Positions 4,414 through 22,200 of a DNA stretch of 64,000 nucleotides are shown here, in pieces. The position numbers were made by a program, and so were the translations under genes. This DNA comes from Flavobacterium ginsengisoli. GTDB taxonomy: Bacteria > Bacteroidota > Bacteroidia > Flavobacteriales > Flavobacteriaceae. Positions within the stretch are counted from its first letter, which is position 1; every line of letters begins with the position of its first letter. The notes beneath the pieces were generated by a model that was not told the DNA's origin, did no database searches, and was given only the letters and a program-made list of their open reading frames with translations. Where the stretch lies: positions 3,419,001-3,483,000 of the forward strand of contig NZ_CP121110.1 of NCBI RefSeq assembly GCF_029625315.1, read 5' to 3'.

Positions 4414-5847
4414 TTACTCGATTTCAGAAACTCTCATCGTGTTAACCATTCCTCTATCTTTAATTGGCATTGCAGCAAGGTTGATTAAGTAATCTCCTTT
4501 TTGTGCATAACCTTTATTGATTGCAATTTGATTTACATCTGTTACAGTGTCATCAGTACTTTCTTCATTATCATAGTAGAAAGATTTAACTCCCCATAAT
4601 AAATTCAATTGTGTTAAGATTCTTCTGTTTGAAGTAAATACTAAAATATGAGCTGTAGATGGTCTCCAAGCTGAAATTTGGAATGCTGTATAACCGCTGT
4701 TTGTTAAAGTACAAATTGCTTTAGCTTCAATTTCATTTGCTAATAAAGTCGCTTGGTGGCAAACTGTTTTAGTAACAAAACGTTTAGTTTTAATTTGTGG
4801 CGTATTTTGTGGAACCTGGATAAGTGGTGAATTCTCAACAGCTTCACAAATTTGTGCCATTCTTTGAATTACTTGTACAGGGTAGTTTCCTGTAGCAGTT
4901 TCTCCAGATAACATTACAGCATCTGCACCATCCATTACAGAGTTTGCAACGTCGTTTACTTCTGCTCTTGTCGGAGTTAAACTTGTAATCATTGTTTCCA
5001 TCATTTGTGTAGCAACGATAACAGGAATTCTAGCTGTTTTAGCTCTTCTGATCAAATCTTTTTGTACCAATGGAACTTCGTGAGCAGGAAGCTCAACACC
5101 AAGATCTCCACGAGCAACCATTAAACCATCGCAATATGCTACAATTTTATCCATGTTCTCAAGAGCTTCTGGCATTTCAATTTTAGCAATGATTGGAATT
5201 TTTACATCTGAATGTTTAGCAATTAATTCTTGTAAATCTTGCAAATCGCGTGGAGTCTTTACAAATGAAAGTGCGATCCAATCTACTTTTTGCTCGATTG
5301 CGAAAATCGCATCAGCAATATCTTTTTCAGTTAAAGCTGGTAAAGAAATTTTTGTGTTTGGAAGATTAACTCCTTTTTTAGATTTTAATTCTCCACCTTG
5401 AATAACTTTAGCAACAACTTCTGTTTTTTTATCTGTAGAAACAATTTCGAAAATAAGTTTACCATCATCAAGCAAAATGCGCTCTCCAACATTTACATCA
5501 TTTGGGAAATTCTGATATTTCATAAATGCTTTTTTAGCATTTCCGATAATATCCTCTGCAGTTGTAAAAGTAATTTCGTCTCCATCATGTACAACAGTTC
5601 CTTCTTCCATTACACCAACTCTAAGTTTTGGTCCTTGCAAATCTCCTAAGATTGCAGTTGTGTAACCAAACTCTTCGTTTAATCCTCTAATGATGTCGAT
5701 TTTTTCTTTTACTCCTTCGTAATCTGCATGCGAAAAATTGATTCTAAACACATTAACCCCAGCATCGATCATATCTTTAATGATCTCTCTTGTACTACAA
5801 GCGGGCCCAAGTGTAGCAACAATTTTGGTTTTCTTGTTTGTTAGCAT
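4414..5847 (-). CDS. pyk: Pyruvate kinase
   Basis: This 477-aa cytoplasmic enzyme transfers phosphate from phosphoenolpyruvate to ADP, the last step of glycolysis. It starts with the conserved KIVATLGPAC segment, has the catalytic IIAKIEMPEALENMD block around residue 220 and the substrate loop MVARGDLGVELP, then DAVMLSGETATG and a C-terminal allosteric domain. Length matches the bacterial family. It is the last gene of a minus-strand operon and starts 5 bp after the stop of the IPExxxVDY gene. A hairpin with a T-tract follows its stop codon. The frame is intact even though it contains several GCAGC sites. Confidence 0.97.
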   Translation of the reverse strand: MLTNKKTKIVATLGPACSTREIIKDMIDAGVNVFRINFSHADYEGVKEKIDIIRGLNEEFGYTTAILGDLQGPKLRVGVMEEGTVVHDGDEITFTTAEDIIGNAKKAFMKYQNFPNDVNVGERILLDDGKLIFEIVSTDKKTEVVAKVIQGGELKSKKGVNLPNTKISLPALTEKDIADAIFAIEQKVDWIALSFVKTPRDLQDLQELIAKHSDVKIPIIAKIEMPEALENMDKIVAYCDGLMVARGDLGVELPAHEVPLVQKDLIRRAKTARIPVIVATQMMETMITSLTPTRAEVNDVANSVMDGADAVMLSGETATGNYPVQVIQRMAQICEAVENSPLIQVPQNTPQIKTKRFVTKTVCHQATLLANEIEAKAICTLTNSGYTAFQISAWRPSTAHILVFTSNRRILTQLNLLWGVKSFYYDNEESTDDTVTDVNQIAINKGYAQKGDYLINLAAMPIKDRGMVNTMRVSEIE

Positions 5848-5852
5848 TTTTT

Positions 5853-6341
5853 TTAAAAAATTAGATTGTTTTTTGATTTTATTTTGTCTGTATCAACAGC
5901 ATAAATAGCCGCAATACTTTCTATTGTGTTTAATTTTTGTTGAATTTCTGAAAAATTAAGCGCCTCTTCGCTATTATCAATTTTCAGGAAAAAATCGACT
6001 TTTTTAAATTCAGGAAGTAAATGAATTGTTGTCGAAACCTCACTTGTTTCATTAGAAAACAAATTCTGGAAATCATTTGTACTCACAGAAATGATTTCAT
6101 TTTTATTCTGAATTAAATTCCAGGAAACAGCCTTTTCTTCATCATAATAATAGAATCTCGAAAAATTTGCTTCACCTTCCTTAGTTTGAGCATGGATCTC
6201 GTGTTTGCTCTTACTTAAGTTGATCGGAAGGATTTTATTAATAAAATAAGCCAATCTATAATCTTCTAATGAAGTATGAATTGCCATTAAATAATAATCA
6301 ATTTCGTCAAATTCGTCTAAATCCAATTTATGAATAGCCAT
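5853..6341 (-). CDS. IPExxxVDY family protein
   Basis: The start was set at 6341 (MAIHKLDLDEF); an upstream in-frame ATG at 6356 adds only five residues. The roughly 162-aa acidic protein belongs to a small Bacteroidota family named for an IPExxxVDY motif, here seen as the variant LPEFKKVDF near residue 115. The role is unknown. Across Flavobacteria the gene is commonly kept between rnc and pyk, and the same order is seen here. It has no signal peptide or membrane segment, so it is expected in the cytoplasm. Confidence 0.8.
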   Translation of the reverse strand: MAIHKLDLDEFDEIDYYLMAIHTSLEDYRLAYFINKILPINLSKSKHEIHAQTKEGEANFSRFYYYDEEKAVSWNLIQNKNEIISVSTNDFQNLFSNETSEVSTTIHLLPEFKKVDFFLKIDNSEEALNFSEIQQKLNTIESIAAIYAVDTDKIKSKNNLIF

Positions 6342-6466
6342 GTCTTGAAAAATCAAGTTGTAAATATACTATTTCTAAACGGAGCATCAACAGTAATGAC
6401 GCGCTTGTTTTGTTAAATTATAAACGAAAACGTTGTAGACTTGTGATAGTTACAACATTTTTGCGA

Positions 6467-7207
6467 CTATTTCTTGTCAATTTTTTCTTGAAATGCAAAA
6501 TAAGCTCTCTGAGATGCTTTTTCTTCTGCTTTCTTTTTTGAAGTTGCACGCGCTCTTGCGACAACTTTATCGTCAATGCTCAATTTGACACCAAATAAAC
6601 GCTGGCCGTCTATACCATTATCTTCGAAAATGTCATAATGAAAAACTCTTTTTTCTTTCTGACACCATTCGATAACAAGACTTTTATAACTAATAACTTT
6701 ACCTTCTAATCGAGCAATATCGACATAAGGAGTTACTACTCTTTTTTGGATGAATTTCTCGCAAAAAGCATAGCCTTTATCTAAATAAATTGCTCCAATT
6801 AAAGACTCAAAAATATTACCATGAATGTTTTCTCCAAAGTGCTGAATTGGCACTTTGCTCTCTACAAACTGTACTAAATTTAAATCTTTACCTAACTCGT
6901 TCAAATGCTCTCGACTCACAATTTTCGAACGCATTTTAGTTAAATAACCTTCGTCACCATTTGGAGCTTTATTAAATAAATGTGCGACAATCACGGCACT
7001 TAACATAGCATCTCCTAAAAACTCTAAGCGTTCATAATTTATAGGATGCCCATTTTGATCTAATTTATTTGAAGAGCGATGTGTGAAAGCTCTTCGGTAA
7101 AAATCAACATTTGTAGGCGGAAAACCAAGAATTTTCTGAATAGTGTCAAAAAAAATCCCGTCTTCTAGAGAACGGGATTTAGAAAATATTTTTTTGATAA
7201 TATTCAT
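6467..7207 (-). CDS. rnc: Ribonuclease III
   Basis: This 246-aa double-strand-specific endoribonuclease processes rRNA precursors and other structured RNAs. The signature NYERLEFLGDAML lies near residue 58 and carries the catalytic acidic residues; a second acidic cluster is at NIFESLIGAIYLD. A double-stranded RNA-binding domain occupies the last 75 residues (SYKSLVIEWCQ to KKKAEEKASQRA). It lies 10 bp after fabF in the conserved acpP-fabF-rnc cluster and was probably made from the same transcript. Confidence 0.95.
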   Translation of the reverse strand: MNIIKKIFSKSRSLEDGIFFDTIQKILGFPPTNVDFYRRAFTHRSSNKLDQNGHPINYERLEFLGDAMLSAVIVAHLFNKAPNGDEGYLTKMRSKIVSREHLNELGKDLNLVQFVESKVPIQHFGENIHGNIFESLIGAIYLDKGYAFCEKFIQKRVVTPYVDIARLEGKVISYKSLVIEWCQKEKRVFHYDIFEDNGIDGQRLFGVKLSIDDKVVARARATSKKKAEEKASQRAYFAFQEKIDKK

Positions 7208-7217
7208 ATACAGAAAA

Positions 7218-8471
7218 TTAATCAGCTAGTTTTTTAAACAATACGCAAGCATTGTGTCCACCAAAACCAAATGTATTACTCATAGCAACATTTACTTCTC
7301 TTTTTTGAGGTTTGTTTAGAGTAAGGTTTAAAGATGGGTCAATGTTTTCATCAACAACTGTATGGTTAATCGTTGGAGGAACAATTCCGTGTTGCATTGC
7401 CAAGATAGAAGCAATAGCTTCGATAGCTCCAGCAGCACCAAGTAAGTGTCCTGTCATAGATTTTGTAGAGTTGATGTTGATATTTTTGGCGTGATCTCCA
7501 AAAACTTTACTGATTGCTTTTAACTCAGCAACGTCTCCTAATGGAGTAGAAGTTCCGTGAGTATTAATATGATCAACCTGATCAGGTGTCATTCCAGCAT
7601 CTCTCAATGTGTTTTCCATTACTGCGATAACTCCAATTCCTTCTGGATGTGGTGCCGTTAAGTGGTAAGCATCTGATGACATTCCGCCACCACCAATTTC
7701 ACAGTAGATTTTTGCACCTCTAGCTTTAGCATGTTCGTAATCTTCAAGAACCAAAGCTCCTGCTCCTTCTCCTAAAACGAAACCATCTCTAGTTGCATCA
7801 AAAGGTCTTGAAGCTGTTTCTGGACTTTCGTTTCTTGTTGATAAAGCGTGCATTGAGCTAAATCCTCCCATACCAGCAATTGTAACTGCAGCTTCAGAAC
7901 CACCAGAAACAATAACATCGCACATTCCTAAACGAATGTAATTGAAAGCATCGATTAGCGCATTTGCAGAAGATGCACAAGCAGAAACCGTTGTATAATT
8001 TGGTCCCATGTACCCGTTACGCATAGAAATATGCGCTGGAGCGATATCGGCAATCATTTTAGGAATAAAGAAAGGATTGAACTTTGGAGTTCCATCACCT
8101 TTTGCATAATACAATACTTCATCCTGGAAAGTTTCTAAACCTCCAATTCCTGCTCCCCAGATAACACCAACTCTTTGTTTGTTTACGTTGTCATTTGTGA
8201 TTCCTGCATCTTTAATAGCTTCATCACTAGCAGCAATTGCATATTGTGCAAACTTATCTAATCTACGAGATTCCTTGCGATCCATGTAATCTTCAATATT
8301 GAAGTTTTTTACTTCGCAGGCAAATTTCGTTTTATGTTTCTCGGTATCATAATATGTGATCGGAGCGGCTCCGCTAACTCCATTCACAAGTGCGTTCCAA
8401 TATTCTTGGATATTATTCCCGATAGGAGTAAGTGCACCTAATCCTGTTACAACAACTCGCCTTAATGCCAT
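7218..8471 (-). CDS. fabF: Beta-ketoacyl-ACP synthase II
   Basis: This 417-aa enzyme condenses malonyl-ACP with acyl-ACP during fatty-acid elongation. The active-site cysteine is in VSACASSANA near residue 165, and the two catalytic histidines are in NTHGTSTPLGD and STKSMTGHLLGAAG. The glycine-rich C-terminus (NTFGFGGHNA) is typical. The sequence contains a natural GCTTGC (Ala-Cys) near the C-terminus that stays in frame, so that hexamer alone does not mark an error. It follows acpP across a long hairpin. Confidence 0.96.
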   Translation of the reverse strand: MALRRVVVTGLGALTPIGNNIQEYWNALVNGVSGAAPITYYDTEKHKTKFACEVKNFNIEDYMDRKESRRLDKFAQYAIAASDEAIKDAGITNDNVNKQRVGVIWGAGIGGLETFQDEVLYYAKGDGTPKFNPFFIPKMIADIAPAHISMRNGYMGPNYTTVSACASSANALIDAFNYIRLGMCDVIVSGGSEAAVTIAGMGGFSSMHALSTRNESPETASRPFDATRDGFVLGEGAGALVLEDYEHAKARGAKIYCEIGGGGMSSDAYHLTAPHPEGIGVIAVMENTLRDAGMTPDQVDHINTHGTSTPLGDVAELKAISKVFGDHAKNININSTKSMTGHLLGAAGAIEAIASILAMQHGIVPPTINHTVVDENIDPSLNLTLNKPQKREVNVAMSNTFGFGGHNACVLFKKLAD

Positions 8472-9003: not shown

Positions 9004-9119
9004 CTATTTAGTTTATAAATGTGACACTAATTTATAAAATTAATTTCAAGAAAGGTCTTTTAAAGCTATTTATTTTCGATTTTTATTCCGTTTTTTGCAG
9101 TCTTAAAACACACAACTTT

Positions 9120-9691
9120 ATGAAAAAAATTATCGTTTTCGCCTCAGGATCAGGAACTAACGCGGAGAACATTATAAAATATTTTTCGAACACCGAAATT
9201 GCGAAGGTTGTTTCGGTCTTTACAAATAATGCTTCGGCAAAAGTGATTGAAAGAGCAAAAAATCATCAAATTCGGTCGAAATCTTCTCAAAAAACGAACT
9301 TTTAGAAAGAAACGTACTACAAAAAGTGCAAGAAATCGACCCGGATTTGATAATTTTGGCTGGCTTTTTATTAAAGTTCCCAGAAAACATAATCGAACAA
9401 TATCCGAATAAAATAATCAACATTCATCCTGCCCTTTTACCAAGTTACGGAGGTAAAGGAATGTACGGAATGCACATACATAGAGCAATTGTAAATAATA
9501 AAGAAAAAGAAACCGGAATCTCTATTCATTATGTTAATGAAAACTATGATGAAGGCGGTATTATCTTTCAGGCAAATGTGGCACTAACCGATGAAGATAC
9601 TCCAGAAAGTGTTGCAGAGAAGATTCATGAGCTGGAACAAAAACATTTTCCAGAGATTATTCATAAATTGTTAGATTCAAATTTCAACTAA
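9120..9691 (+). CDS. purN: Phosphoribosylglycinamide formyltransferase (one frameshift, probably a sequence error)
   Basis: PurN adds the first formyl group from formyl-tetrahydrofolate in purine synthesis. The start is MKKIIVFASGSGTNAE with the glycine-rich substrate loop; catalytic residues follow in NIHPALLPSYGG and the GISIHYVNENYDEGGI block. The frame breaks near 9271-9276: TTCGGTC should be TTCCGGTC, giving HQIPVEIFSKNELL. Adding one base gives 191 codons including stop, the normal length. It is divergent from acpP and followed by rnhA 41 bp later, so the two may be cotranscribed. No biological reason for inactivation is apparent. Confidence 0.88.
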
Positions 9692-14108: not shown

Positions 14109-16008
14109 ATGAGCGACGCTTTAAAACACGAATGTGGTATAGCCTTAGTTAGACTACTAAAACCGCTTGAATATTATAAAGAAAAATACGGAACTGCTTT
14201 CTACGGAATCCAGAAAATGTATTTAATGATGGAAAAACAGCACAACCGCGGACAAGACGGTGCTGGTTTTGCAAGCATTAAATTTGATGTTGAACCTGGA
14301 CAGCGCTACATTAGCCGAGTTCGTTCTAATCATTCGCAACCAATCCAAGATGTTTTCAAACAAATCAATGAGCGCGTTAGCGAAGAACTAAAAGCGCATC
14401 CAGAACTTGGAGACGACATGAAAGAACTAAAAGCAAACATTCCTTATGTTGGAGAATTGTTTTTAGGTCATGTTCGCTACGGAACTTTTGGAAAAAACAG
14501 CATCGAAAGCGTTCACCCATTTTTGCGTCAAAGCAACTGGATGCACCGTAACTTGATTTTGGCAGGAAACTTTAATATGACAAATGTTAAAGAACTTTTC
14601 GAAAATCTAGTTGAATTAGGTCAGCATCCAAAAGAAATGGCTGATACTGTTACTGTAATGGAAAAAATTGGTCACTTCTTAGATAAGGAAGTAATGCAAC
14701 TTTACCAAGACTGTAAAGCTGAAGGATATTCTAAAAGAGATGCTTCGCCAGTAATTGCAGAACGTTTGGATATTGCTAAAATCTTAGCTCGTTCGGCTAA
14801 AAACCTAGATGGTGGTTATGCTATGGCTGGTTTATTAGGTCATGGTGATGCTTTTGTTTTTAGAGATCCAGCAGGAATTCGTCCAGCTTATTTTTATCAA
14901 GATGATGAAGTAGTGGTTGTAGCTTCTGAAAGACCTGTTATTCAAACTGTATTTAATGTTCCTTTTGAAAGCGTTCAGGAAATTGATCCAGGAAATGCTT
15001 TGATTATCAAGAAAAACGGAAAAGTTACCATGAATCAAATCTTGGAACCAACTGTTAAAAAAGCTTGTTCATTCGAAAGAATTTATTTCTCAAGAGGAAG
15101 TGACGCTGAAATTTATCAAGAACGTAAAGACTTAGGAAAATTAATTTTACCTGCTGTTCTTAAAGCAATTGACAGCGATACAGATAACACTGTTTTCTCT
15201 TATATTCCAAATACAGCTGAAACTTCATTTTATGGTTTAGTTGAAGCTGCTCAGGATTTCCTAAATCAGAGAAAAAACAATTATATTCTAGAAAATAGAA
15301 ATACGTTAACCGCTGAAACACTTCAGGAACTTTTAGCTGTAAAAATACGTACAGAGAAAGTTGCTATTAAAGATGCTAAACTTAGAACCTTTATTACAGA
15401 AGATAGCAGCCGTGACGATTTAGTGGCTCACGTTTACGATGTTACATACGGTGTAATTAAACCAGAAGATAATTTAGTAATTATTGACGATAGTATTGTT
15501 CGTGGTACTACATTGAAAATGAGTATCATTAAAATGATGGATCGTTTGAAACCAAAACGTATCGTAATCGTTTCATCTGCTCCACAAATTCGTTACCCAG
15601 ATTGTTACGGAATTGATATGGCAAAACTAGAAGGTTTAGTTGCTTTTAGAGCAAGCACTTGCTTTATTAAAAGAAAGAAACCTTTACCATATTGTAGATG
15701 AAGTTTATGCAAAATGTAAAGCTCAAGAAAATTTCCTTGATAAAGATGTTGTAAACTATGTAACAGCAATTTACGACCAATTTACACCAGACGAAATTTC
15801 AGATAAGATTGCAGAAATGTTAAGCTCACCGGAAATCAATGCTGAAGTAAAAATTATTTTCCAAACAGTAGATGACCTTCATAAAGCTTGTCCTAAAAAT
15901 TTAGGTGACTGGTATTTCACTGGAGACTACCCTACTCCAGGTGGAAATCGAGTTGTAAACCGTGCTTTTATGAATTTTTACGAAGGGAAAGACGCTAGAG
16001 CGTATTAA
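14109..16008 (+). CDS. purF: Amidophosphoribosyltransferase (one frameshift, probably a sequence error)
   Basis: PurF makes phosphoribosylamine from PRPP and glutamine, the committed step of purine synthesis. The catalytic Cys is expected near the N-terminus and is seen in HECGIALVRL (Cys 9); the glutaminase domain has NRGQDGAGFASI, and the PRPP-binding motif is VIIDDSIVRGTT near residue 460. The frame breaks at 15651-15656 (GCAAGC); reading GCAGC gives GLVAFRAALALLKERN and 633 codons including stop. The C-terminal part ends in NFYEGKDARAY. The Bacteroidota protein is longer than E. coli PurF, consistent with this length. Confidence 0.9.
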
Positions 16009-16107
16009 TAAAATACTAATAAAAGGTTAAATTGTGCATTTCATCGGTTTTTTTGCCGTTCATCCTATTTCTTTGGTGAAATTGAAAAGCTATGATACTT
16101 TTGAGAT

Positions 16108-16178
16108 ACCATAACATTAGTAGGTTAAGTTTATGGTAGATTTGGGGCAAAAAGGGTGGAAGCAATTCCACCTTTTTT
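16108..16178 (+). ncRNA. Small RNA, array copy 1
   Basis: A -33 TTTG (16072-16075) and -7 TACTTTTG (16096-16103) place the transcript start about 5 bases downstream at the conserved ACCATAAC. The RNA has a 5' hairpin (ACCATAA/TTATGGT, about 16-base loop), a conserved linker AGATTTGGGGC, and a terminator hairpin GGTGGAA/TTCCACC followed by six Ts. The terminator stem carries T-A pairs where copies 2 and 3 have C-G, which preserves pairing. Confidence 0.8.
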
Positions 16179-16291
16179 ATTGGAATTAACTCAACCAATT
16201 TATAAACAACCTATTACATCTCTTAATCGGATATACTTACCTTTCATCTGAAAAATTTTCTTCACAATATTATCTGCCATACATTTACTAA

Positions 16292-16361
16292 ACCATAACA
16301 TTAGTAGGTTAGTTTATGGTAGATTTGGGGCAAAAAAGGCGGAGTAACATCCGCCTTTTTT
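16292..16361 (+). ncRNA. Small RNA, array copy 2
   Basis: The -7-like element TACATTTA (16280-16287) ends 5 bases before the conserved start. The 70-nt RNA has the same 5' hairpin and AGATTTGGGGC linker as copy 1, then terminator stem GGCGGA/TCCGCC with a GTAACA loop and a T-run. It lacks one A in the 5' loop compared with copies 1 and 4. Confidence 0.8.
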
Positions 16362-16475
16362 ATTTTTTAAAACTTAAAAACCTGTAAATCAGCCAATTAA
16401 AAACACTTCATCGAGTATAATTGCCTTTCATCTAAAAAATTTTCTTTATAAAAATACCTGCCATACATTTACTGA

Positions 16476-16545
16476 ACCATAACATTAGTAGGTTAGTTTA
16501 TGGTAGATTTGGGGCAAAAAAGGCGGAGTAACATCCGCCTTTTTT
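16476..16545 (+). ncRNA. Small RNA, array copy 3
   Basis: Its RNA part is identical to copy 2 over the 70 nt as far as I can read, preceded by the same TACATTTA element (5 bases before the start). Upstream sequence resembles that of copy 2 but with several substitutions, so the transcribed part is better conserved than the spacer. Confidence 0.8.
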
Positions 16546-16658
16546 ATTGAAATAAATTCATGATTTTCAAAAACAAGCTTTATACGTCTTTAATCGGATA
16601 TTGTTGCTTTTTATCTGATAAGTTTCTATGAAAAAAATATCCGCCATACCTTTACAAG

Positions 16659-16729
16659 ACCATAACATTAGTAGGTTAAGTTTATGGTAGATTTGGGGCA
16701 AAAAAGGTGGAAGAATTTCCACCTTTTTT
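16659..16729 (+). ncRNA. Small RNA, array copy 4
   Basis: The promoter element TACCTTTA (16647-16654) again ends 5 bases before ACCATAAC. The 5' hairpin and linker match copy 1. The terminator stem GGTGGAA/TTCCACC has a different loop, so stem pairing is kept while the loop drifts. It is the last unit before the sodA terminator. Confidence 0.8.
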
Positions 16730-16853: not shown

Positions 16854-17465
16854 TTATTTGTCTAAAGCAAATCTTCTAGCAACTTCTGTCCAGTTAATTA
16901 CACTGAAGAAAGCTTCAATATAATCTGGTCTTCTGTTTTGGTAGTTTAAGTAGTAAGCGTGCTCCCAAACATCCATTCCTAAGATTGGAGTTCCACCGTG
17001 ACCAGCAACTTCTGGCATTAATGGATTATCTTGATTTGGAGTACCTACAACTTCTAATTTTCCTCCTTTTTGAACTGTTAACCAAGCCCATCCAGAACCA
17101 AATTGTGTTGCGCCAGCTTTAGCAAATTTTGCTTTAAATTCTTCGAAAGATCCGAAAGAAGCTTCAATTGCAGCCAATAAATCTCCTGTTGGCAAACCTC
17201 CTCCGTTTGGAGACATTACAGTCCAGAACAAGTTGTGGTTGTAGAAACCTCCACCATTGTTACGAACTGCAGCGTTAGATTTATCTAAATTGATTAAGAT
17301 ATTTTCGATTGTTTTTCCCTCTAAATCTGTTCCAGCGATTGCTGCGTTAAGATTTGTAGTATATGCATTGTGATGCTTTGTATGGTGGATTTCCATTGTA
17401 CGCGCATCAATATGTGGTTCTAATGCATCGTATGCATATGGTAATTGTGGTAATTCAAAAGCCAT
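16854..17465 (-). CDS. sodA: Superoxide dismutase, Fe/Mn family
   Basis: This 203-aa cytoplasmic enzyme converts superoxide to peroxide and oxygen. The four metal ligands are visible: His in [12 protein letters not shown] (near residue 27), His in [10 protein letters not shown] (near 76), and Asp and His in [13 protein letters not shown] (near 165-169). The family signature DxWEHAYY is intact. Metal preference cannot be fixed by eye. The gene is monocistronic with a clear -7 element and a strong terminator. Confidence 0.95.
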
Positions 17466-19361: not shown

Positions 19362-20304
19362 TTACATAATGAATTTTCCACTGATGGAATTGTTGTGGTG
19401 AACCATCTGCATAACCTCTGCAAATAAAGGCGCGCAACTTACCACTTTTATTTTCTTTGATTCTCTCTTTAACGGAATAGAATCTGTTACGATTAATTCT
19501 GTTAGTTTCGAATTTTCAATTTTCTCATACGCACCGCCAGATAAAATAGCGTGTGTACAAATTGCTCTTACACTTAGCGCTCCTTTTTCGATCATTAGGT
19601 CGGCAGCTTTCGCTAATGTTCCTCCCGTATCGATCATGTCGTCTACTAAGATTACGTTACGTCCTTTTACTTCACCAATAAGTTCCATAGTGTCGATAAC
19701 GTTGGTCGCTTTTCTTTGTTTGTAACAGATAACTACATCTGATGCTAAAAACTTAGAATAAGCATATGCTCTTTTTGAACCTCCCATATCTGGAGATGCA
19801 ATTGTTAGATTTTCTAAATTTAAACTTTCTACGTATGGTAAAAAGATTGTAGATGCAAATAAATGATCTACTGGTTTTTCAAAGAATCCTTGAATTTGGT
19901 CTGCATGCAGATCCATTGTCATGATTCTTGTTGCTCCTGCAGCAGTTAATAGGTTTGCTACTAACTTTGCTCCAATCGGAACTCTTGGTTTGTCTTTTCT
20001 ATCTTGTCTTGCCCAACCAAAATAAGGCATAACTGCTGTAATGTGTCTTGCTGATGCGCGTTTTGCAAGCATCAATCATTAACAACAATTCCATCAGATT
20101 ATCTGCACTTGGAAAAGTCGAACAAACGATAAATACTCGCAACCCTCTTATTGACTCTTCGTAAGACGGCTGAAATTCTCCGTCACTATACGTTGACATC
20201 GTTACTTTTCCTAACGGAATCCCGTAGTCTTTTGCAATTTTTTCTGCAAGATAAACACTTTGTGAACAAGCAAAAATTTTAGCTTCTGGTTCTAGGTGCG
20301 ACAT
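19362..20304 (-). CDS. prs: Ribose-phosphate pyrophosphokinase (one frameshift, probably a sequence error)
   Basis: Prs makes PRPP from ribose-5-phosphate and ATP, needed for nucleotides, His and Trp. Motifs: YSDGEFQ, the ATP-binding loop FGWARQDRKDKPR, the catalytic flexible-loop region SKFLASDVVICYKQRK, and the PRPP-binding VDDMIDTGGTLAKAA near residue 220. The frame breaks at 20065-20070 (plus-strand GCAAGC); restoring GCAGC gives LLLMIDAAKRASARHI and 314 codons including stop, the family length. A cell without Prs would need many supplements, so real inactivation is unlikely. Confidence 0.92.
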
Positions 20305-20586: not shown

Positions 20587-22200
20587 CTAAGCCCGGATGG
20601 CGGAATTGGTAGACGCGCTGGTCTCAAACACCTGTGGGAAACCGTGCCGGTTCGACTCCGGCTCGGGTACTTTAACGGAAAAGCTGTCATTTTTGACAGC
20701 TTTTTCTTTTTTAAGCCTTTCCGAACCCTTGCTATTTCTAGTCAAGACGTTGATTACCTCATTGACTTGAGTGGTTCGACAATCATCATTTCCAAAAAGT
20801 AATTTTTGAGTAAAAATCGCACCTGCTACAATTCTTTTTCCATCATAATCTGCATTAAGAAACAACTTATCCAAGTTTGCAAGTAACTCAAGACCTGAAT
20901 CTACATACGTTTTTATTGAATCCGTCTTAGCACTAAGAATCTCAATTTCATTGTTCACAACGCTTAAATTTCCATTTATGCGTTCTATTATACTTTCAAA
21001 TCTTTCTGTACTGATATCGTCACTCATAAGCTTATCTTCTGCTTTTTCAATTTGAGCTTTTAATGCTCTCTGAGCCTCCAGCTTAATCTCAAGCTGATTA
21101 CTTTTATCTCCATTGATTTGAGATTCTGAATCTTTTAAAACATCAACAAACAATTCTTTTATATTTTCATTTATCTGTAAACCACTTAAAATACTTGCGA
21201 TTTTAAGATGAGCATCATCAACGGAGACCCTTGTTTTGCACTTATTTCTACAATGATAATAAGCATACCTCTTTGTTCTACCTTTAGAATTACTTCCCGT
21301 GATTTGACTTCCACAAATCTTACAAGTTAAGAAATCACGCATTGGGAAATCATGGTTTTTATGACTCGGTTTGATTCCGTGCCATCTTTTTCCCTTAAAC
21401 ACATTTTGAACCTTGTTGAACGTTTCCAAATCTATTAAAGCCTCATGTTTACCATCAACTATCATCGCAGATTCCTTTTTAAATTCAGGAACTCTTATTT
21501 TACCGATATACACAATGTTTTTAAGAAGTTCGCTAAAAGCACTCTTCTTTAACTCCATTCCGTCTTGTCTTAACTTTTTCCTTATCGTTTCTACAGGCTC
21601 TATCCCCATAGCAACTTCTTTGAATGCTCTTTTTACTAAACCAGCATGTTCATTTGGCTTAAGAGTAGATTTTTTCAGTTCATCTCTAAAGTTATCATAT
21701 CCAAACGGAGCTTTTCCAACAAAATAACCATCTTTCTTCGCTTGATAAGTTCCCGCAATTGTTCTACTAGATATTTTATCCCTCTCAACCTCGCCAGCAG
21801 TCAAATAAATAGCCAATACCATTTTATTGTCAGAATTACTCGTGTCTAGGTATTGCTCAGATGCATTTAACTCAACACCTATTGAATCAAACTCTCTTAA
21901 AACCGTCAGAGCTTGTTCAACATTCCTTGAAAACCTATCCCATTTAGCAAAAAGAACCTTATGGATTTCTTTCTTGTTGGATTTCACATATGTTTTCAAT
22001 TTTGACCATTCTGGTCTATTGAAGTTTTTAGCCGAGTGGTCTTCTCTGTAAACTTTGACAATATTATAGCTCCTTGAATCACAGTATCTCTTTAAGGATT
22101 CTTCTTGATAATCTAAACTAAAACCTTTTTGAGCTTGCTCATCAGTGCTCACCCTGCAATAAATTATCACATTTACACTACTATTCATAAACTTCTCCAT
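20587..22200 (-). CDS. Large serine recombinase (site-specific integrase)
   Basis: This 537-aa protein has a resolvase catalytic domain (residues about 9-155) with nucleophile Ser18 in YCRVSTDEQ and the conserved WDRFSRN and LAIYLTAGEVERDKIS segments. A recombinase domain follows (about 165-270), then a zinc-ribbon (CKICGSQI ... YHCRNKC), then a coiled-coil region (about 360-440). An alternative start at MNSSVNVI (residue 5) is equally likely. The last ~35 residues are translated from the tRNA terminator and antisense tRNA, so the native C-terminus may differ. Large serine recombinases insert and excise phage and mobile-element DNA. Confidence 0.88.
   Translation of the reverse strand: MEKFMNSSVNVIIYCRVSTDEQAQKGFSLDYQEESLKRYCDSRSYNIVKVYREDHSAKNFNRPEWSKLKTYVKSNKKEIHKVLFAKWDRFSRNVEQALTVLREFDSIGVELNASEQYLDTSNSDNKMVLAIYLTAGEVERDKISSRTIAGTYQAKKDGYFVGKAPFGYDNFRDELKKSTLKPNEHAGLVKRAFKEVAMGIEPVETIRKKLRQDGMELKKSAFSELLKNIVYIGKIRVPEFKKESAMIVDGKHEALIDLETFNKVQNVFKGKRWHGIKPSHKNHDFPMRDFLTCKICGSQITGSNSKGRTKRYAYYHCRNKCKTRVSVDDAHLKIASILSGLQINENIKELFVDVLKDSESQINGDKSNQLEIKLEAQRALKAQIEKAEDKLMSDDISTERFESIIERINGNLSVVNNEIEILSAKTDSIKTYVDSGLELLANLDKLFLNADYDGKRIVAGAIFTQKLLFGNDDCRTTQVNEVINVLTRNSKGSERLKKEKAVKNDSFSVKVPEPESNRHGFPQVFETSASTNSAIRA
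20591..20669 (+). tRNA. tRNA-Leu (CAA anticodon)
   Basis: The acceptor 5' strand GCCCGGA, D-arm GAATTGGTAGACGC, anticodon loop CTCAAAC (anticodon CAA), long variable arm and T-arm GCCGG-TTCGACT-CCGGC are all present. Two oddities: the 3' acceptor strand reads TCGGGT, one base short of TCCGGGT needed to pair with GCCCGGA, and it lies in a CCGG context like the gene deletions. Also the anticodon stem has one T-T mismatch (CTGGT facing ACCTG). CCA is not encoded. A terminator follows. Confidence 0.85.
20679..20708 (+). terminator. Terminator after tRNA-Leu
   Basis: Stem AAAGCTGTCA/TGACAGCTTT with a short T loop is followed by TTTCTTTTTT, 10 bp after the tRNA. Confidence 0.75.

Follow-up and report, generated by a model that had tools for sequence, protein, structure and literature searches.

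An array of four near-identical genes for an RNA of about 70 nt lies on the plus strand between purF and the convergent sodA in the window, which is the whole stretch of 64,000 nucleotides of Flavobacterium ginsengisoli DNA that was analyzed. We hold with moderate confidence that the array encodes a multicopy trans-acting sRNA that would be controlled by a LytTR response regulator, RR1, and would pair with mRNAs. The tandem units were reported in a first-pass annotation of the same DNA. The twin direct repeat upstream of the units, the family-wide conservation of the RNA, its slot between purF and sodA and the link to a LytTR regulator are new relative to that annotation.

Organization of the array in the window

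The units occupy positions 16108..16178, 16292..16361, 16476..16545 and 16659..16729, from the predicted +1 (ACCATAA) to the end of the T-run. Their lengths are 71, 70, 70 and 71 nt and their spacings 184, 184 and 183 bp, which confirms the earlier description of four units of 70-71 nt, 183-184 bp apart, together with its predicted starts. A covariance model, R1, was built from 32 units of 20 loci, and a match was defined by an E-value of at most 0.001; the four units score 101.5, 89.6, 88.8 and 102.3 bits. Each unit has a -7-like box, a 5' hairpin, a UUUGGGG linker (GATTTGGGGC) and a strong intrinsic terminator. The first-pass annotation proposed the same hairpin, linker and terminator, and all four units fold in this way, with z-scores of -3.95 to -4.66 against dinucleotide shuffles. 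It also proposed a TAnnTTTG-like box ending five bases before the start. The distance holds in every unit, but the final G of TAnnTTTG is found only in unit 1. The boxes read TACTTTTG in unit 1 (16096..16103), TACATTTA in units 2 (16280..16287) and 3 (16464..16471) and TACCTTTA in unit 4 (16647..16654). No clear -33 element was seen by eye in units 2-4. Thus the window holds several copies, each with a promoter-like box and a terminator, which is the arrangement of a multicopy sRNA.

Units 2 and 3 are the most similar pair (92% identity over 143 nt). The promoter region of unit 1 was compared in four loci from as many species: the unit-1 promoters are 0.79-0.92 identical to one another, but identity to the other units within the same array does not exceed 0.68. 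Unit 1 therefore seems, from these identities, to be older than the species and orthologous between them.

The upstream neighbor, purF (14109..16008, plus strand), is read in two frames with an apparent frameshift near 15690, and the downstream neighbor, sodA (16854..17465, minus strand), encodes an Fe/Mn superoxide dismutase; both neighbors are conserved. The genes called purF, purN, prs, rpsF, rpsR, priA and glyS here are those that we take them to be from our own reading of the proteins. Four of them are split into overlapping or adjacent frames, namely purN (window 9021-9691), purF, prs (19362-20304) and priA (5324-7771 of locus L210). In relatives purF (L319) and priA (L215) are whole, and the split frames suggest indel errors in assembly GCF_029625315.1. 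Elsewhere in the window, a reading frame that we read as serine-recombinase-like (20587-22200) runs over a tRNA gene (20591-20669), an overlap that may show where an integrated element is attached.

Distribution and conserved structure of the RNA

R1 matches were found in 171 of the 199 genomes of the genus and in 242 of the 299 genomes of the family, representing 195 of 236 genera; because of this conservation, chance is excluded as the origin of the array. A survey of 246 genomes of the order gave a match in 33, every one of them a member of the same family. Array size had been put forward as a feature to compare, and it does vary between species, from 1 to 7 matches per genome with a match. 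A permissive second search covered 25 genus genomes, of which 13 had no match and 12 had matches that were weak or low-scoring; 5 of the 25 were still without a hit at an E-value of at most 0.05; the marginal permissive hits L092-L099 have neither purF nor sodA adjoining. Among the matches listed are Flavobacterium, Winogradskyella, Algibacter, Lacinutrix, Xanthomarina, Psychroserpens, Mangrovimonas and Gelidibacter. F. psychrophilum does not occur among the matches listed in a pattern scan of genome contigs (80 of at least 120 stretches). A few record titles of matches name other groups, for example a Lentimicrobium MAG, by title only. With regard to phage carriage, the 20-base core pattern had no exact match in viral contigs.

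The usual slot across the family is purF, the units and then the convergent sodA. Among 136 loci, most of 3 kb and with some redundancy, both genes were recognized beside the match in 107, purF only in 13, sodA only in 3 and neither in 13, of which 11 are weak permissive hits. In one Flavobacterium with a 2.7-Mb genome (L084 and L199; G187 C1, about 2046500-2051500), four diverged units and one further, weak hit form two groups separated by about 0.65 kb; in L084 sodA was recognized and purF was not.

Structure was evaluated in an alignment of matches (A5, E-value 1e-4), which replaced an alignment (A4) that included terminator-only matches. RNAalifold without a given structure returned a weak alternative 5' fold, and the structure of the single-sequence folds was imposed instead; because A5 was fitted to that model, the pair counts lean toward it. 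Pairing holds in 92.8% of cells in the 32 units and in 92.2% in the wider set (119 matches, 115 distinct), compared with 82.1% for shuffles and no more than 64.8% when the structure was slid. The three helices differ among the 115 distinct units. The terminator shows double compensatory changes at 12 of its 13 pairs, with 98.3% of cells paired; the corresponding values are 2 of 7 pairs and 87.8% in the outer 5' helix and 0 of 3 pairs and 75.4% in the small inner helix. The first-pass annotation had noted GGTGG/CCACC versus GGCGG/CCGCC as a compensatory change and had argued for selection on structure. That change is present in the window and such changes are extensive across relatives, so selection on structure is borne out, most clearly in the terminator. 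Neutral drift with loss of pairing, the result that it had named as speaking against its reading, is not what the terminator cells display. The unpaired positions are among the most constant, and TTTGGG occurs in 118 of the 119 aligned units. We read this pattern as selection on the terminator pairing as structure and on the loop and linker as sequence; the 5' hairpin is, as judged from the alignment, conserved mainly by sequence.

A variant unit type has TTTGGGA in place of TTTGGGG. One clade within Flavobacterium has rewritten the hairpin and loop and kept TTTGGGG. A 5' hairpin is predicted in all three of its members that were folded, and the clade uses the same purF/sodA slot in the loci with both flanks in view.

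A twin direct repeat and its candidate regulator

Upstream of each unit in the window lies a twin direct repeat, a putative operator, which scores from 20.5 to 29.9 bits. The repeats are located on the plus strand at 16036..16065 (unit 1, 19-bp period, 29.9 bits), 16219..16249 (unit 2, 20.5 bits), 16403..16433 (unit 3, 26.3 bits) and 16586..16616 (unit 4, 23.6 bits), the last three with a 20-bp period. In a set of 199 upstream regions, in which identical regions were counted once and those with N, without an exact core or with fewer than 125 bases upstream were dropped, a twin repeat with 20-bp spacing was found at about -73 to -43 of 193, each scoring above the 99th percentile of shuffles. 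Its consensus is GCatTTcATCt, and the copies start at about -73 and -53. The 20-bp period is present in 179 of the 199, and in 179 the second copy lies at one of two neighboring distances from the core (135 and 44 regions), which in a standard unit are -53 or -54. The absolute scores are inflated because the 199 regions that were scored, against a background of mononucleotide shuffles, also served to train the matrix; the fixed spacing and position are better evidence for the twin repeat than the scores. A variant last unit, the one nearest sodA (GATTTGGGACG), was observed in L075, L077, L078 and L079, from three genera, with twin-repeat scores of -6.5 to 0.5 bits compared with 9.7 to 26.8 bits for the other units there.

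The form of the twin repeat resembles that of paired LytTR sites. LytTR proteins were considered as readers of the repeat. The own genome has 25 LytTR matches, and seven small RNA-carrying genomes have only one or two each. In the six small genomes that were compared, the best own-genome match is always RR1, at 34.8-47.4% identity and well ahead of the next. RR1 is an orphan LytTR response regulator encoded at 1538112-1538804 of contig C1 (G000) between rpsF and priA, and this slot was found in all seven loci read, the own locus included, with one extra adjoining gene in L217 and L218. Of the own RR1 and three orthologs, all but one pass the Pfam cut-offs for both the receiver and the LytTR domain; in the exception, the ortholog of L205, the receiver scores 27.3, below the cut-off of 30.2. 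A degenerate receiver, an idea that came from the small genomes, was dropped, as the phosphoacceptor Asp is present in 25 of the 30 best-scoring orthologs. In a coevolution study of F. johnsoniae, the available part of the article numbers a mutated LytTR gene, which may be RR1 or a second LytTR gene, RR2, beside a histidine kinase (PMC10197871).

A profile search for RR1 was made in the same 299 family genomes with a cut at 1e-80; no best E-value falls between 6.4e-86 and 2.7e-78, and some intermediate values lie below this gap. With kinship ignored, 223 genomes have the RNA and RR1, 19 the RNA only, 4 RR1 only and 53 neither; the counts become 228, 14, 4 and 53, again with kinship ignored, when five diverged RR1 orthologs confirmed by position are included. 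All of the 19 RNA-only genomes other than G512, G521, G596, G671 and G714 were read individually. Four of them (G455, G532, G566 and G608) turned out to carry a diverged RR1 between the usual neighbors, each together with the twin repeat, and G592 has RR1 in that slot but a good RNA copy without the repeat. Three others (G568, G610 and G498, which are 86%, 95% and 88% complete) keep the RNA and have neither a LytTR match nor a twin repeat, and G591 has the RNA and one unrelated LytTR protein and is without the repeat. In G611, G617 and G668 the twin repeat is present and RR1 was not found by the profile search, with LytTR matches checked in G617 and G668 but not in G611. The hits in G580 (a tRNA and then a terminator) and G656 (no core) are for these reasons probably not the array RNA. 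Of the RR1-only genomes, G545 and G715 are 64% and 76% complete, G664 has a single RNA hit (9.2e-4), which lacks the core, and G445 has no hit, so that neither of the latter two has a convincing RNA. For the link between RR1 and the array, G568, G610, G498 and G591 count in favor, and G592, G445, G664 and the three genomes with a repeat but no RR1 found count against.

Of the 30 best-scoring RR1 loci, 22 carry the twin repeat before RR1 itself, 78-84 bp ahead of its start codon and with a score above the 99th percentile of 960 control windows (7.5 bits). The highest control score was 18.3 bits, and in L238 and L249 a control window outscored the RR1 site. By eye, one further locus, L248, has a twin repeat with 21-bp spacing. 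Both RR1 promoters read in the own genus are without the repeat. From this sequence comparison, RR1 is likely to be the reader of the twin repeat.

Proposed function, alternatives and relation to known RNAs

In the mechanism that we propose, a signal would act on RR1, which would bind the twin repeat just upstream of each unit promoter (repeats at about -73 and -53) and recruit polymerase, thereby activating the array; RR1 would also control its own gene in many genera. Each unit, separately promoted and intrinsically terminated, would give a stable non-coding RNA of about 70 nt. The loop of the 5' hairpin (AGUAGGU) and the unpaired UUUGGGG linker would form its working surface and would most likely base-pair with mRNAs, and copy number would set dosage. 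The first-pass annotation had suggested dosage or sponging for the tandem copies, and either may apply. Antisense targets were sought with one 10-nt linker complement (GCCCCAAATC) in 8 genomes (53 rows). It has three sites outside the array in the own genome, one of which was examined. Sixteen non-array sites from 7 of the 8 genomes were examined, and from this one pattern no conserved mRNA target was obtained. Thirteen sites fall within reading frames, 11 of them antisense and 2 sense. Of the other three, two are not in any frame of 100 aa or more, and one (L191) touches a start codon and is without support elsewhere. Three of the 11 antisense sites represent a single site that recurs in one gene among related species.

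The main rival is a protein-binding decoy, in which the hairpin and UUUGGGG would titrate an RNA-binding protein, as CsrB/RsmX-type RNAs do, and tandem copies would raise the capacity. The constancy of the linker and loop, the common occurrence of more than one copy and the lack of a conserved target in the limited antisense search are consistent with it. However, each RNA has one site and each unit its own terminator, rather than many sites in one RNA, and there is no candidate protein partner, and we regard the decoy as rather doubtful. A small peptide encoded by the units, with its start at AUGGUAGAUUUGGGG, is highly improbable because the frame is not conserved: ATGG is found in 108 of the 119 aligned units, but several other genera have ATGGTAAGATTTGGGG, which is one base longer and shifts the frame, the diverged clade has no ATG there, and selection downstream maintains terminator pairs. 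Tandem copies in variable number might also point to a mobile or neutral repeat (REP-like) or to a duplicated terminator without a product of its own. The RNA nevertheless keeps its usual family slot, with both neighbors adjoining in most loci, unit 1 is orthologous between species as judged from its promoter in the four loci, and the twin repeat stands at a fixed distance, which leaves this explanation scarcely plausible.

A variant of the preferred multicopy sRNA, limited to Flavobacterium, is that the twin repeat is read not by RR1 but by RR2, a second LytTR response regulator that has FLEI where RR1 reads FLDI. A strong twin repeat (up to 26.9 bits) lies upstream of the RR2 gene in six Flavobacterium loci, the own included (L156, repeat at 802-832 and gene at 1003-1809; L331, L356, L397, L361 and L316); a glyS-like gene precedes RR2 in the last three. 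RR2 could be the regulator in Flavobacterium because the RR1 promoters read there lack the repeat and the RR2 gene has it. Against this, in other genera the repeat occurs in small genomes in which RR1 is the only LytTR protein or one of two, and the DNA-binding domain of RR2 is outside the 12 best own-genome scorers against that of RR1 (RR1 included), so a shared specificity is not evident. We consider the variant unlikely, and family-wide RR1 is the better-supported reader. Further twin sites were sought in 1.99 Mb of loci, which are redundant, and were found before two genes of Gly_rich_2 secreted proteins (L347 405-1382; L141 1490-2354, own genome). The L347 gene lies immediately behind an sRNA unit. 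In L141 the Pfam score of 25.6 is barely above 24.3, and the site came from a search with a strict twin pattern, which finds 7 sites in the own genome compared with 3 for its reversed control and is thus hardly above chance outside the array; the repeats of units 1 and 4 and the site before RR2 escape the strict pattern. From the sites before the two Gly_rich_2 genes and RR2, we tentatively entertain a family-wide dedicated circuit, in which an autoregulated orphan LytTR protein would have as its main targets a multicopy core sRNA and a few surface-protein or regulator genes.

At gathering score, Rfam identified one tRNA only in the whole window. A permissive scan gave 99 hits on 861 bases, all below their own gathering scores; many of them fall on terminators or on the opposite strand, and membership in an Rfam family was rejected. 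Flavo-1 and 6S, which the first-pass annotation had offered for comparison, have no match at gathering score and are absent from the 99 permissive hits as well. RNAIII, under AgrA, and VR-RNA, under VirR, are regulatory RNAs whose LytTR regulators read paired direct repeats; both are longer single RNAs of Firmicutes. The array RNA would share with them a LytTR regulator and paired direct repeats, and the VR-RNA model scores 21.3 bits on the array region against 100. LhrC, the Cia-dependent csRNAs and Qrr exist as several near-identical copies with a shared regulator. They belong to other bacteria, and the regulator of the array would differ in being of LytTR type; the csRNA model scores 27.1 bits against 57, on the other strand. 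The available part of PMC11697453 names these multicopy sRNAs of other phyla. As described there, FopS (RF04319), a group of paralogous sRNAs of Bacteroides, is likewise from Bacteroidota, multicopy and short, with a Rho-independent terminator, but has a single-stranded 5' stretch where the array RNA has a conserved 5' hairpin (PMC11697453). On the own strand of the units the best score for RF04319 is 16.9 bits, compared with a gathering score of 56. In F. psychrophilum, the accessible portion of PMC9723704 reports 85 new RNAs, of which Rfp11, Rfp13, Rfp15 and Rfp18 are conserved in other species; like the array RNA, the Rfp sRNAs are structured and conserved beyond the species. One of these four may be the array RNA, although Rfp18, compared by description only, is presented in that portion with a third stem-loop and the array unit has two (PMC9723704). 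No description of the array was recognized in the open-access literature among the matches listed, and the available parts of PMC9331221, PMC10057207 and PMC10197871 contain nothing specific on it.

The RNA is thus present in about four fifths of the sampled family genomes, yet has no Rfam family at gathering score. Its link to one conserved regulator offers a directly testable circuit, and the genomes with the RNA but without a LytTR match or twin repeat are where a regulator-independent role of the RNA should be sought. If the dedicated circuit is true, the cell-surface output of Flavobacteriaceae would be set by sRNA dosage and a G-rich seed.
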